Assembly (NCBI GenBank): GCA_036939975.1
Contig: JALLPB010000915.1
Span: 1-12,208, forward strand
Length of the DNA: 12,208 bases
Reading direction: 5' to 3'
Source: Cyclostephanos tholiformis
Lineage: Eukaryota; Bacillariophyta; Thalassiosirophyceae; Thalassiosirales; Thalassiosiraceae
The notes beneath the pieces were generated by a model. It did not search any database. It saw nothing but the letters and a program-made list of their open reading frames with translations, and was not told the DNA's origin. The position numbers and the translations under genes are program-made. Shown here in pieces: positions 1,210-7,443 of the stretch (position 1 is the first letter of the stretch; each line of letters begins with the position of its first letter).

Positions 1210-2354
1210 AGAGAGCATCTGCAAAAAGGAATGGAAATGATCTTCCACCATTTCACGTTGGTTGCAGCACATCAGCATTGTAGACCAAATGCATATCCCC
1301 CCCCCCAGTTCTTCAAACACTTAGAATGAAAATCAAATGCAGCAAACACTATACAATGTGCATTCCATCGTGCACAAAGACACTTCAGTCTGAGCATACA
1401 AATGCTGAACCCAAAACAAACAAACCAAGTACCTACCACTACCAACATAATTGTCACAAATCCATCATCACTCACAAACTTTCCAATTGGATGTCATGTT
1501 GTCATTGCACAGTCCCACCCAAAACATGCCAACACCACTGGCACAGTGACACAACACAACACAAAATTTGTCATGTTTGTCCCTGATGCTCCTCCCCACC
1601 ACTGCACCCAAAGCCCACAAAAAAGGCATACCAAAATTGCATTCCCCAATGCCAATGACAATGACAACCAAGCACAAATGCAAGGACAACAAGAAAGAGA
1701 CAATGCCACATATGACAAACTAGACAAGACAGCAAACATCCCAGTTGCCGATGGATTCGTCAGCTTTACTTGCACATTCCAATACCTTGGCTCCCTCATC
1801 AACTATGACAACCAATTACATCAGCCATTGCAGCAATGGGGGCACTATAAGAAATATGGCGAAACCCCCACCTCAATATTTACAACAAATATCTGCTCTT
1901 TTGAGCTATCCCAATGAATCTATTTCTCTGGGGTGCTGAAACATGGCCGCTCAGGAAAACAAAACTTGACCAACTCAATGTCTTCCTCCAGGAGGATTTG
2001 ATGACCCTTGTCAAAAGCCTCAAGAATGAGAAAGTACGTAACATGTTCTACTTGATCCCATGTATACAACACATGAGTGTGGCCAGGCAAGCAGACTTCA
2101 TTAGAAAGATGATTCGAGGTCCACCCGATTGCTCATCTTGCAATATGATCACCCCCTGCTGCAACAACAAGCAACATGTTGGTCAACTACAAATATCTGG
2201 TAAAAACTTCATTGTCAAGAACTTATACCTGTTATTCAAGGATATTGAAATGGTCTACATTGATCAATTTGGCTTGTTGCAAGACTGGATCTGTTGCAGC
2301 TAATCTTGAAGTTACGGCATATTCGAAACTAGCTCCCGCTAAAATATCAAATTT

Positions 2355-2414
2355 ATGTATATTTGAATATACATATGTATATTTGAATATACATATGTAT
2401 ATTTGAATATACAT
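2355..2414. repeat. Three perfect 20-bp tandem palindromic units
   Basis: The unit ATGTATATTTGAATATACAT occurs exactly at 2355-2374, 2375-2394 and 2395-2414. Each unit is a 9-bp-arm palindrome apart from its central TG, so the tract can fold as separate hairpins or as one larger structure. It lies near the left end of the 710-bp element. Confidence 0.96.
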
Positions 2415-2462
2415 GGTCATTTTGTGGCCAAATATCAAATATAGACCCCTTTCATCAGAAAA

Positions 2463-2946
2463 CCCATAAATTTGAAATTATGGGTGTCACAGCAAACCCG
2501 TAAATTTGAATTTACAGGCCATCTACATTCAAATTTATGGGCTGTGTCAACCATCTAATATCAAATATAGAGATATTTTTGCAATTTATCGCTGACATAT
2601 CGCCATATTCAATATTAGGGCTTATCTGTGTTTTCAAATATAGCGATATGTTGGCTATTTATGTCATATTTTATCGCCATATTTGATATTAGGGCTTATC
2701 TGTGTTTTCGAATATAGCAAAATGTCGGCTATTTACGTCATATTTTATCGCCATATTCAATATTATGGGCTGTTTTGCCATCTAATAACAAATGTGGAAA
2801 TGCTGGAACTTCGATATTAGATGCATTGAATTCAAAGTTACGGGCTGATCTAACTATGTCATATCGAATTTGAGCCATACAAAATGACCAAATTTCCCGT
2901 AAATTCAAATTTACGTTCGTGAATGAACCCGTATATTCAAATATAC
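2463..2946. repeat. Dispersed palindromes with TTTGAA or TTCAAA centres
   Basis: Short near-perfect palindromes recur, for example around 2463-2484 (ATAAATTTGAAATTAT), 2500-2515 (GTAAATTTGAATTTAC), 2898-2915 (CGTAAATTCAAATTTACG) and 2931-2946 (GTATATTCAAATATAC), with a half-similar copy at 2527-2541. Several are bounded by CCC or CCCG on the left and GG or GGG on the right. The arms pair fully in the last three, and only the central CA or TG breaks symmetry, as expected if the ancestral centre was TTCGAA. Confidence 0.85.
2602..2770. repeat. 74-bp direct tandem repeat, two full copies plus a partial
   Basis: The copies are 2602-2675 and 2676-2749, each starting GCCATATT and ending CATATTTTATC. 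A third start at 2750 diverges by about 2770, and a more diverged partial copy seems to lie upstream from about 2560. The two full copies differ at seven positions. Six of these fall in dinucleotides that are CG in one copy and TG or CA in the other, or CA in one and TG in the other. Confidence 0.93.
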
Positions 2947-3275
2947 AGAAGCGGTCTGGCCATAACTTCAAATATAAGGATATTCAATATTATCTTGTAC
3001 AGATCCACTAAGCCTTGGATGAAGTATACTGGAACCAACTTGTAAAACAACTCCTCCATCCAGAGACTCCCCCAACAGACCATCTGGAAGCATGGGGGCC
3101 ACTCCCATCCTGGCAAGATTGACAAGCTGCCAGTGGGCAACATCATGCTGATCACAAACAAGAGGAAGATGGAAGCGGTAACAAGGATGATGAGAACAAT
3201 GAAATGCCATGAAGGCAATGTCACCACACCCCCCCACCTCCATCGATTTTCTGCAGGTTTGTTTGTTCTGACTAA

Positions 3276-3599
3276 GGACAGAATCAAGACATCAATTATG
3301 TACCATCTTCTACAAAAAAATGGCACACTTTTGCATGATTTCCCTTTATGAATTTTTTCTACTGCCAGAATACTCAAAAAGCTTAATGCAAATTCTCCCC
3401 CCCCCCCCCACACACACACATAATCCACATATCTTCAAAAACTCTATCATCAAAACCAAACATCATCATCAATCATCATCACCCTGCAAGATCATAAACT
3501 TCATCCATGACAGCGGCAATGACTGGGAGAACTTTTGCACCAACACCACCCACCCATCAACCACCAAGAAAGCAGTAAAACCCCCATCACCACATTCGA
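3276..3599. other. Non-coding gap with poly-C and CA tracts
   Basis: I recognise no gene here. The gap holds a short A-run (about 3314-3320), a run of 13 C at 3397-3409, then an AC dinucleotide tract (3410-3420), and from about 3440 a CATCATCA-rich stretch. A weakly constrained open frame runs through it into the R2 relic, but its composition (His, Ser, Thr, Pro) follows the simple-sequence content. It may include the decayed N-terminal leader of the R2 copy; I cannot place that boundary. Confidence 0.6.
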
Positions 3600-4388
3600 T
3601 GATCTCGGAACACAAGACCACCAAGATCAATGACCAACTTGCTCCCAAACCCCTCCCCCCCCAAATCCCCATCACTTTGTCCTTTCTCCCATCCATCCAA
3701 CACAATGACATCTGGCAGATGCATAAAAAGGCTGAAGCATCCTTCTGGATGGCTGAAGAAATTGACCTCTTCACCAATGTGACAGATTGGGCTGGTTTAT
3801 CACTGACAGAACAGCACTTTATCTGTCACATCCTCTCCTTCTTTGCAGCATCCAATGGTATCATCAACAAAAACCTCTGCAACAACTTCACCACGGAGGT
3901 CACATTGGCAGAAGCTTGATGCTTCTATGGCTTCCAAATTGCCATCAAAAATATCCACAGTGAGATGTACTCGCTCCTCATCAACATGTACTTCAAGGAC
4001 CCGGCAAAGAAGATGCACCTCCTTTGTGCCATTGAGACCATCCCATACATCCAGAAAAAGCACAGTGGGCGCTCAAATGGTGTGACACCACTGCCACAAG
4101 CTTCGCTGAATGCATGATTGCATTCACCGCTGTTGAAGGGATATTCTTTTCTGGCTCTTTTTGCACTATCTTCTGGCTCAAAAATGTGACCAAATGCCAG
4201 GATTATGCTTCAGCAATGAATTGATAAGCCACAATGAACTACATCAAATTCTGTGAGGACCAAATCCTCCTCACTCTTGGATGTGATCGCTTTTCAAAGT
4301 CTTTGAAAAACATGTTGGTGAATACTCAATGTCAGGTGTTGGTGTTGATTGTGCCAACTAAACCTTTGCTATTGAGACTAGCTTTTGA
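3600..4388 (+). pseudogene. Ribonucleotide reductase small subunit (R2) pseudogene, intronless
   Basis: Functional R2 is the cytosolic diiron-tyrosyl-radical subunit of class Ia ribonucleotide reductase, which makes deoxynucleotides. Recognisable blocks in order are: NPHHFVLSPI (frame 1, 3664), QHNDIWQMHKKAEASFW...AEEIDL (frame 2, 3698), the FFAASNGIINKNL helix, [27 protein letters not shown] (frame 1), [23 protein letters not shown] (frame 3, 4194), NYIKFCEDQILLTLG (frame 1), FEKHVGEYSMSGV and the C-terminal TFAIETSF ending at TGA 4386-4388 (frame 3). Damage includes a 4-bp ATCC duplication near 3691-3698, a TGA at 3917, frameshifts near 4060, 4186 and 4292, a TAA at 4359, and two large deletions. 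One of these removes the RDEGLH iron-ligand segment. The Glu of the ENIHSEMY motif is Lys (3947-3949), while His and the radical Tyr (3968-3970) remain. The lack of introns suggests a retrocopy, but the parent gene is not visible. The 5' boundary is approximate. Confidence 0.92.
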
Positions 4389-5028: not shown

Positions 5029-7443
5029 TCATCCCTCCCATATCACAATAATCCCATCACTTTGGGGAGTATCCCCTATCACTTCGCAAGCAACTTCTAG
5101 CAAGAATGCCTCATATTCATCATTGTTATCATCTGTGCCCTGTTCCAAAGAAACAGCAAGCACAAACCATCCATTACCCCTACCCCAACAAAACTCCATT
5201 TTCTTGTGACACACAGAAAATGTCTTCCCAGTATCTGCTCTACAAAAACAAGACCTCTATATTTTGTAAGCAGCCATGCCTCTGCAAACACAATCATTCT
5301 TCTTTCGAGCCTCTTGTTCCCAATCTTCTACATCTGCTTGAAAGATATGCTGGACAACTGGTTGCCTTAATGCAGCTGTATCTACCCCAAACTTTTCTAG
5401 TTCATCTCCAAATATTGCATCTCGTCCGGCTGCATCTATCTTCTCCATCTTTTGCATTGAATTCTTGCCTGCTTTATCTTTGATGAAATATATATAATAC
5501 TCCTTTTCTACAGTGAGTTGCCACTCAGATGTGACCTCTGCCCTGTCTTTATCTGCTTAACTCCACCCCAGCTTCTCTCTGCAGGCCCTATACCGCAAAG
5601 CTTTGATGTCACATGGCACGCCACAAATCCCAACACCGATGTGTAAGGAAGTGAATATTTTTCATGCCAGAGGTACAATCTCTCCTGAGCAACGACCTGA
5701 GTAGCCCAGTGACTGGGCTCATGATAAGGCCGGTCACAATTCTGAAATGCCTTGAACTCATTCTAGAACTGGTCAATAATCTCAACTGGAGTCATAGAAA
5801 AAACATCAGGGTTAGTGTTAGCACAAGGCATGACATGTAGGTAGTGAACTACATGCTCAATTGCATCTCTATACTCCCCCTTCATCCGTATAAGGACATC
5901 ATTCCAAACTTCATCAACTACTGACAATGCCCACCCTGCAATTGCATACTCATGTTCAATCCTTTTCCCCCTTCTATTCCAATACCAGAGTACCTGTTGG
6001 CCAAATGACATAATCGAATTATAGGGTGTGGTATCAGCAGTATTTCATCATAAGTGTCATTGTCATCGTCGGAATCAGGGTTGTCCTCTAAAACAACTTG
6101 CTCTTCCTCATTGCTATCATTGTCTACACCTAAAATATTATTCCTATCCTCCATTAAGTTATGATCACCTGATAGGTTGTCAAAAAGCTCATCATCATTC
6201 AATGATTCCATTGAATTTTCAATTGCGACTGTTGTCCTGTAAGAGAGAAAATATATTTTGTCCATTGATGGCTTGTTTGCGCCAAAGTAGCAAAGAGCTT
6301 TGAGTGCAGAAAAGACAGAACAAAGAAGAATGTATAAGCACTTCCAGAACTTAGCCTCCTTAATGTCATGTACTGCCATCCATGCACTCTTATTCAGTGG
6401 CAAAGATAGAAATTTTTGTTCGTGTATCGTTGCCTTCATTGGCTGCTCAAGACGAAGAAGACAAATCATGGTGTAGAACCATACTGCCATTCAAGTTCCT
6501 GCACCCCAGAGAAAACCAACCTTTTACCCCCATTTTCAAGAGAAAACTGAGCCATGAATTGTGCATAGATTGCATGATTTGCACCTGATCCAAACATGTT
6601 ATAAATTCTGAACATTTTGAGGATTAACAGCTGCTAGAAGACAAACAAAGGTGAGTTGTTTGTTTCATGCCAAATAGCAACAACTACAACACATACCTTA
6701 ATCGGTTTGATCTTTGCAATTGACAAGAAAAACAGAGACCCCACATGCTCCCCTCCATGGAAGCAAAATGAACAAGGATATTTGGCCATCAATAGCTCCC
6801 CTGCCTTTTGAATGTTTAAAGCCCCATCAAAGAAAAAAACATCAGTGAACTGGTTCTTGGGGTCAAACTCTGCCACCTTCTCCTCAAACAATGATGCCAC
6901 ATATACAGCATCCTTCTTCCTCCCTTCCTCCATATGTGAGGTACAATCTTGAATCGCAACAGTCACAGGAGGAACTATTATTGTTGTGCCATTGCCAAGG
7001 AAAGACAAACCAAAAGCACTTGCTTCCTTTAAGAGCTTTTCTTTGTTCTTCTTATAAATAGTTTCATAATTAAGGTCAAGTAATTCCCCCCCTATCTTCC
7101 TGTGACCAGGCAGAACAAAATCATCACCAACAAGGCAACACTAACACACAAGCCGGGCAAACCTTGGCGACTCAACAACAGCATCTGCAATATTCTCACT
7201 GGTGTTAGTCACAGCACAGGGGACCTGAAGTTGCCTACATTTTAGGGGTTTGCATATCTGGCACTTTCGGCACCTGACATCGCCAAAAGGGCAAGTGCAC
7301 CAGGAATGAGCAAAGTGAAAGATCTTTTCTCCTCTCACTTTGCATTTAACCCCAAGCATAGCCAACCCATTTAAGAGACCAGTAGCATCCCCCCCAATGT
7401 TCACTGGATGTAGTAAATTAATGCACCATGGGCCACCCCCCAC
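5029..7443 (-). pseudogene. hAT-like transposase pseudogene
   Basis: A DNA-transposon transposase would act in the nucleus on its own terminal repeats. Reading from 7443 downward, the N-terminal part has a Cys-rich, BED-like cluster (CTCPFGDVRCRKCQICK) ending in a stop at 7141-7143. The same frame then continues with GDDFVLPGHRKIGGELLD, SFLGNGTTIIV, QDCTSHMEEGRKKDA and FFFDGALNIQKAGELL, which I read as the RNase H-like core. A 63-bp intron interrupts at 6696-6634. Further blocks are KSAWMAVHDI...FWKCLYILL, PSMDKIYFLSYRTTVAIENS, an acidic linker, RIEHEYAIAGWALSVV, and the C-terminal dimerisation-like CGIGPAERSWGGVKQIKTG (about 5550-5605). The tail ends near VACEVIGDTPQ with a stop at about 5029. 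Stops occur at 6491-6493 and 5763-5765, with frameshifts near 6480, 6010, 5450 and 5215-5260. Family placement is from motif memory; a related lineage-specific transposase is possible. Confidence 0.72.
6634..6696 (-). other. Spliceosomal-type intron within the hAT-like gene
   Basis: On the minus strand the exon ends ...AAG, followed by GTATGT (6696-6691). The segment closes with a pyrimidine-rich TTTGTCTTCTAG whose last base is 6634. The length is 63 bp. It sits in phase 0: family-like sequence (AKIKPIK) stops at the donor and resumes after the acceptor as QLLILKMFRIYNMFGSG in the continuing frame. Read through, the intron gives nonspecific sequence and the in-frame TAG of its acceptor. Confidence 0.8.

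Follow-up and report, generated by a model that had tools for sequence, protein, structure and literature searches.

The window analysed here, a 12,208-nt stretch of the diatom Cyclostephanos tholiformis (contig JALLPB010000915.1, here C891), contains a 710-bp block at 2292-3001 on the plus strand that is flanked by GATC on both sides, with the left copy at 2288-2291 and the right copy at 3002-3005. An earlier note on this DNA had described the block as a mobile, palindrome-rich element without genes that interrupts a long interspersed nuclear element (LINE) and duplicated a 4-bp GATC target, and had assigned it to no known family. Genomic copies and an empty site uphold this description of a mobile element, whereas it need not remain unclassified, since the termini of the block are common to elements that carry an integrase and an Ulp1-like protease.

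The empty site is found on contig C778, where the two flanks of the block are joined. The left flank (1690-2291, plus strand) aligns at 79% to C778:5101-5752 and the right flank, second GATC included (3002-3244, plus strand), at 81% to C778:5749-5980, and the two matches overlap by exactly 4 bases (5749-5752). Aligned to C778, the joined flanks show no gap at the junction and a single GATC, with a 10-base gap farther along. A pattern spanning the junction matched C778 at one mismatch and three other places at two mismatches, with six matches for the reversed control. We regard C778 (L049) as a wider paralog because it has a frame similar to the ribonucleotide reductase small-subunit gene remnant that lies beside the block in the window (3272-4117, two frames; PF00268, E 5e-19 and 4e-13). 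Given flanks joined at one GATC on this wider paralog, the block therefore entered after the duplication that separated C891 and C778 or, less likely, was cleanly lost from C778. Duplication of GATC on insertion is thus borne out, and the objection raised in the earlier note, that the block might be a normal part of intact copies of the host sequence, falls away. That the host sequence is a LINE is not proven; two left-flank frames gave no Pfam match at E 0.1, and the flank of the C778 paralog contains stops.

A reading without any insertion, in which C778 lost the block by precise deletion, could draw on the fact that C778 is the only paralog to span the junction, five other longer matches ending short of it. 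We consider this very improbable. The block belongs to a dispersed repeat whose ends recur elsewhere in the genome, and a deletion would need to imitate an empty site down to the single remaining GATC.

The block itself has the architecture of a gene-less transposable element. Its 5′ terminal inverted repeat (TIR), TGTTGCAGCTAATCTTGAA, occupies 2292-2310 on the plus strand, and its 3′ counterpart, which reads TGTACAAGATAATATTGAA inward and differs from the commoner family form TGTNNNAGCTAATATYRAA, occupies 2983-3001 on the minus strand; as had been counted before, the outermost 19 bases of the two ends agree at 14 positions when one end is read in reverse complement. The 5′ end, TGTTG, fits the pattern TGTNR, but the 3′ end, TGTAC, does not, other copies having TGTAG or TGTAA. 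Next to the termini lies the previously noticed 13-bp subterminal inverted pair (2306-2318, plus strand; 2959-2971, minus strand), whose members differ only in that the right one has TpG for CpG. The interior is as dense in palindromes and repeats as first described, with 13 palindromes with arms of at least 8 (mean 0.36 and maximum 3 in 100 dinucleotide shuffles) and four with arms of at least 10 (none in the shuffles). It includes a palindromic run of TATATTTGAATATACA units at 2355-2414 (opposite-strand self-match, 90%) and a direct repeat at 2561-2771 on the plus strand, made up of two overlapping copies (2561-2696 and 2634-2771, 85%). Frames contained entirely within the block reach at most 81 residues (2738-2983, minus strand), and no transposase is present.

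A DNA search of the assembly (25 Mb, 1566 contigs) with the block yielded at least 104 matches (40 scored of 87 candidates) on at least 38 contigs, and 39 loci were retrieved for comparison. Other copies share the end positions of the window copy, which removes the concern, also voiced in the earlier note, that they might end elsewhere. Twelve of 15 two-ended copies, window included, have identical 4-bp flanks (11 GATC, 1 GAAC), and the remaining three differ at one base. This count leaves out one-ended loci, takes the inverted duplication L017/L018 on one contig once, and omits L060, L062, L066 (GATC/GTTC), L077 and L082-L085, which had been selected by a GATC end. Reported apart are C182, C302, C354 and C939, selected because their listed ends lack GATC; the flanks of these four copies read AATC/AATC, GACC/GACC, GTAC/GTTC (C354, 3/4) and GTGG/GCTC (C939). 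Duplications read across copies thus comprise GATC, GAAC, AATC and GACC.

The preference for GATC is equally clear from the terminus alone. The family motif at the 5′ end, TGTNNCAGCTAANNTYRAA, has 125 exact matches genome-wide versus one for the reversed control (217 versus 18 with up to one mismatch), and GATC directly precedes 61 of the 125, where about 0.5 would be expected (background 0.0039 per position in the fetched loci). In the contigs fetched, at least 12 of these 61 termini are separated from a contig end by no more than about 210 bp, an effect that young, near-identical copies would be expected to have on assembly. Pattern scans gave no match in viral contigs and nine in prokaryote genomes, about the chance level for 257 Gb (estimate 7-8). 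Readable terminus pairs span 151-932 bp. A partner scan of 17 ends produced one clean pair, L066, to which L060, L062 and L077 were added later, and one terminus accompanies different interiors (L082-L084, 151-174 bp; L085, 537 bp; and others). MITEs (miniature inverted-repeat transposable elements) are short, gene-less and multi-copy, with inverted ends, a duplication of fixed length and several interiors under one end pair. The 710-bp element is of this type, having no gene, many copies, TIRs and a target site duplication.

Genes that could supply the missing functions lie next to family termini. At L061 (C18), the family 3′ end is followed by about 0.5 kb of palindromes and then by a 330-residue frame directed at the terminus, with a weak match to an Ulp1 protease profile (E 0.0015, below cut-off). 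This frame has 47 relatives among 1155 candidates in a public protein set, including P0001 (562 residues), which ends in a Cys-rich tail. In a nine-row protease alignment (A1), D216, Q280 and C286 are invariant and a preceding His is present in eight rows; together we take these residues to be the Ulp1-type active site. The predicted structure of P0001 (25 sequences, mean pLDDT (predicted local distance difference test) 72.6) matches SENP2, SENP1, Ulp1 and NEDP1 with target-normalised TM-scores (template modelling scores) of about 0.4-0.66 (rows at E ≤ 0.001), which suggests that the gene of the larger relatives encodes a protease of Ulp1/SENP fold with a Cys-rich tail. None of the 25 members of a further alignment (A3) matched Peptidase_C48 at E 0.01, and a protein scan of viral contigs with A1 gave 49 pattern matches, of which not one was confirmed. 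At E 0.001, the protease query matched 31 contigs. Open frames of 1814 and 938 residues with diverged protease matches are also present on C677 and C1518, where no integrase match is listed.

The second gene encodes an integrase. A search of the genome for the rve domain gave 17 matches, seven above cut-off, and five lie upstream of the protease gene on the same strand: C1563 (above cut-off) and C23, C1039, C1420 and C1169 (below). The C1039 core reads as a D-D(37)E integrase (rve E 1.6e-6), its best solved relative is foamy-virus integrase, and relatives make up 357 of the 457 candidates from the public protein set. An alignment of such integrases (A2) shows rve in 11 of 16 members and an H2C2 finger in six. 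With one relative, P0063, as query, 33 contigs were found at E 0.001. These coincide with the 31 protease contigs on 13, against 0.65 expected (p about 2e-15), and on all 13 the two genes lie on one strand with the integrase first. On C1039, a single open frame of 1174 residues covers both integrase and Ulp1-like protease.

Termini and genes are associated beyond chance. Family DNA or listed termini occur on at least 140 contigs and coding matches on 51; both are held by 14 contigs versus 4.6 expected (p about 8e-5), C1563 not among them. Order and strand are consistent in ten of the 14, in some only partly, and at six loci a family terminus is linked to the integrase, the protease or both. 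On C509, C1002 and C299, the 5′ end lies 1.1-1.5 kb before the first integrase match; on C1169, C18, C1472 and C8, the 3′ end lies about 0.7-0.9 kb beyond the protease tail. The window copy aligns with both sides of this arrangement. Its 5′ half (2288-2697, plus strand; blastn query 1-410) is homologous at 73-74% to the 5′ ends upstream of the integrase gene on C509 and C1002. Its 3′ part (2782-3005, plus strand) is homologous to the 3′ ends downstream of the Ulp1-like gene on C1169 (L040; 73%, query 495-718) and C1563 (72%, query 542-716, E 3e-20), and also aligns at 80% to C1335. Because the 5′ half aligns to C509 and C1002 and the 3′ part to C1169 and C1335, the halves of the window element look like the two ends of a larger element whose coding middle is missing.

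From these spacings we predicted a 3′ terminus 0.7-0.9 kb past the protease tail on other two-gene contigs, and two such contigs were read. On C1563, the exact terminus stands at 590, 815 bp past the tail match and followed by GAAC, as predicted, giving the order integrase (3603-4262), protease with tail (1405-2306) and family 3′ end. In 281 bases of the expected 3′ range on C1039, neither terminus nor family DNA was found; the C1039 element either belongs to another family or has its end elsewhere.

Overall, the block is probably a MITE-like element that arose in this diatom by internal deletion from a cut-and-paste DNA transposon of Ginger-like type, and the larger relatives point to a little-described branch of the Ginger transposons. 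Several observations, the C1039 result among them, weigh against this assignment. Among the 13 two-gene contigs, six of which were examined, the family terminus is in place only on C1169 and C1563, with C1039 negative so far, and a 151-base stretch that might hold a 5′ end of C1563 contained none. None of the elements was followed from one terminus to the other, and no single contig has both termini and both genes. C1335 has a 3′ array and no terminus, the C1225 gene is truncated and close to the terminus, the 5′ end on C1060 precedes a protease alone, without integrase, and the integrase at L076 is on the strand opposite to the terminus. Four of the 14 shared contigs misfit, C581 by opposite strand and C1491, C95 and C687 by termini elsewhere on the contig. 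Two copies depart from the target rule, C939 lacking a duplication and C625 (L077) having flanks that match at only 2/4 (GTGC/GATC). Peptidase_C48 scores 18.9 versus a Pfam cut-off of 20.7 bits, and a profile search of PDB sequences gave no protease match. Of the five rve matches co-linear with the protease gene, four fall under the Pfam cut-off, with 28.8 bits for C1039.

The misfitting contigs also bear on a different assignment, in which the MITE would owe its mobility to a different superfamily that makes 4-bp duplications, for example Sola2, and the integrase-Ulp1 genes close to some termini would be nested or chance neighbours. The Sola2 target consensus is GRHC, which GATC, GAAC and GACC would fit. 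Sola2 has also been reported with a 4-bp duplication like that found here (PMC3627910), and Sola as well as Ginger is listed in Cyclotella cryptica (PMC7466962). We nonetheless judge this assignment unlikely, given that coding and terminus contigs overlap above chance, that order and strand agree in ten of the 14, and that the C1563 terminus was found where predicted.

The TGT...ACA ends and 4-bp duplication, together with a neighbouring integrase that resembles retroviral integrase, would also suit a solo long terminal repeat (LTR) of a Gypsy-like retrotransposon. The block, however, has inverted repeats at both ends, and copies of 151 to 932 bp have quite different interiors under the same ends. 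Moreover, its 5′ half stands before the integrase and its 3′ part after the protease, with no one repeated unit on both sides, and the C1039 integrase is fused to an Ulp1-like protease. A solo LTR is thus improbable.

Transposase genes of another kind were first taken as candidates. DDE_Tnp_4 genes lie near family termini at L058 and L063 (PF13359, E 4.6e-10 and 8.2e-16, in two of eight frames scanned), as would be expected if a PIF/Harbinger family mobilised the element. Both were dropped; the L058 gene is enclosed by inverted repeats of its own (1456-1558 and 6097-6198, 92%), and we give mobilisation by Harbinger hardly any weight. L058 1456-6198 is a separate element, with the DDE_Tnp_4 gene and an opposite-strand frame, that adjoins a broken GATC-family copy. 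L063 1460-2290 holds a second, different DDE_Tnp_4 gene for which no partner end was found, and the proteins of L073 and L076 gave no useful family match.

Under the Ginger-like assignment, a full element would begin with a 5′ TGTNNCAGCTAA terminus and a 5′ region that puts 1.1-1.5 kb between the terminus and the first integrase match, followed by an integrase with H2C2 and DDE domains, the Ulp1-like protease, the Cys-rich tail, a palindromic region of about 0.7-0.9 kb and the 3′ terminus. The mosaic of partial copies suggests a length of about 5 kb, of which the window copy would retain the two terminal regions only. A transposase encoded by a larger copy may act in trans on the common ends, its multimer recognising the terminal repeats and probably also the repeated ATATTCGAATAT-like palindromes. 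In such cut-and-paste chemistry, in which the protease may have a role, strand transfer would place the ends at GATC across a stagger of 4 bases, and gap repair by the host would then duplicate GATC.

CpG observed/expected is 1.11 in the block and 0.30 in the whole window, and reaches 2.4 in the terminal array of L061, whose commonest 8-mer with both strands pooled, ATATTCGA, occurs 20 times in 530 bp. In a 13-copy alignment, the 48 columns with CpG in at least two copies hold 154 CG, 176 TG and 170 CA, versus 245 GC, 37 AC and 26 GT in the 36 columns of a GpC control, a pattern that may be the mark of methylated CpG decay. One could go further and propose a separate Ginger-related superfamily of diatoms, defined by a D-D(37)E integrase, Ulp1-like protease, Cys-rich tail and GATC target, in which CpG-centred ATATTCGAATAT arrays are methylation-sensitive transposase sites and host methylation both silences and erodes copies; we regard this extension as doubtful.

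Further observations concern individual copies and the rest of the window. The copy at C939:2129-2861 is of the same general type; its terminal CpGs are intact, its flanks are unlike, and it is perhaps a recombinant. L032 1001-1497 has two tandem family 5′ ends 155 bp apart, preceded by GATC and GATT, and L062 7063-7499 is a tandem array with a spacing of about 68 bp and 80-86% identity. By eye, the window starts with a CCATTG tandem run (1-60) and has several diverged copies of a repeat of roughly 250-300 bp at 120-1200.

Among known systems, the closest is Ginger1, which has 4-bp duplications of CCGG (75%) or CCGT/ACGG (24%), TGTNR ends, TIRs of 40-270 bp, an integrase with a C-terminal Ulp1 or OTU domain and full lengths of 2.6-7 kb (PMC2836005; Bao, Kapitonov and Jurka 2010). 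The diatom family shares with it a strongly sequence-specific 4-bp duplication, a TGTNR-type 5′ end and an integrase with an H2C2 finger followed by a C-terminal Ulp1 protease, genes that are tied to the family termini via neighbouring loci and C1563 rather than by one complete copy. It is labelled Ginger-like, and not filed as Ginger1, because the target is GATC in place of CCGG or CCGT/ACGG and the TIR is about 19 bp and imperfect in the window copy in place of 40-270 bp. The window copy also departs in its TGTAC 3′ end, and the family in its Cys-rich tail, its long palindrome arrays and its diatom host, the Ginger1 families tabulated being animal elements (PMC2836005). A GPY/F motif after the DDE core, as in Ginger1, was not seen by eye in two relatives (P0046 and P0098). 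A silicon transporter in the assembly supports the diatom host (687.6 bits over 430 profile positions, with none of 14 control genomes above the cut-off in this search). Ginger2/TDD elements likewise have an integrase with an H2C2 finger, TGTNR ends and 4-5 bp duplications, but prefer RTATAY, and no Ulp1 domain is mentioned for Ginger2 in the available sections of the same source (PMC2836005). The IS481EU and IS3EU/GingerRoot groups also use an integrase-like DDE transposase, and some IS481EU families have TGT...ACA ends and 4-bp duplications, as here; IS481EU differs in its parabasalid hosts, its single protein and its additional duplications of about 15 or 25 bp (PMC10045372). Relative to other MITEs, the 710-bp element is long and unusually palindrome-rich.

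A diatom host alone would not make a Ginger element novel, since Ginger and Sola are listed among the DNA transposons of the Cyclotella cryptica genome (PMC7466962). The titles and abstract openings of the literature matches listed mention no GATC-targeting Ginger-like family, which does not by itself establish absence from print. If our assignment is correct, a diatom lineage combines the Ginger1 domain plan with a GATC target and mini-elements, and target choice would be evolvable within the group. GATC, GAAC, GACC and AATC would then form a natural series in which to study the choice of a palindromic 4-bp target by an integrase. Classification of diatom repeats could also benefit from the family, which clearly illustrates CpG decay within a transposon.
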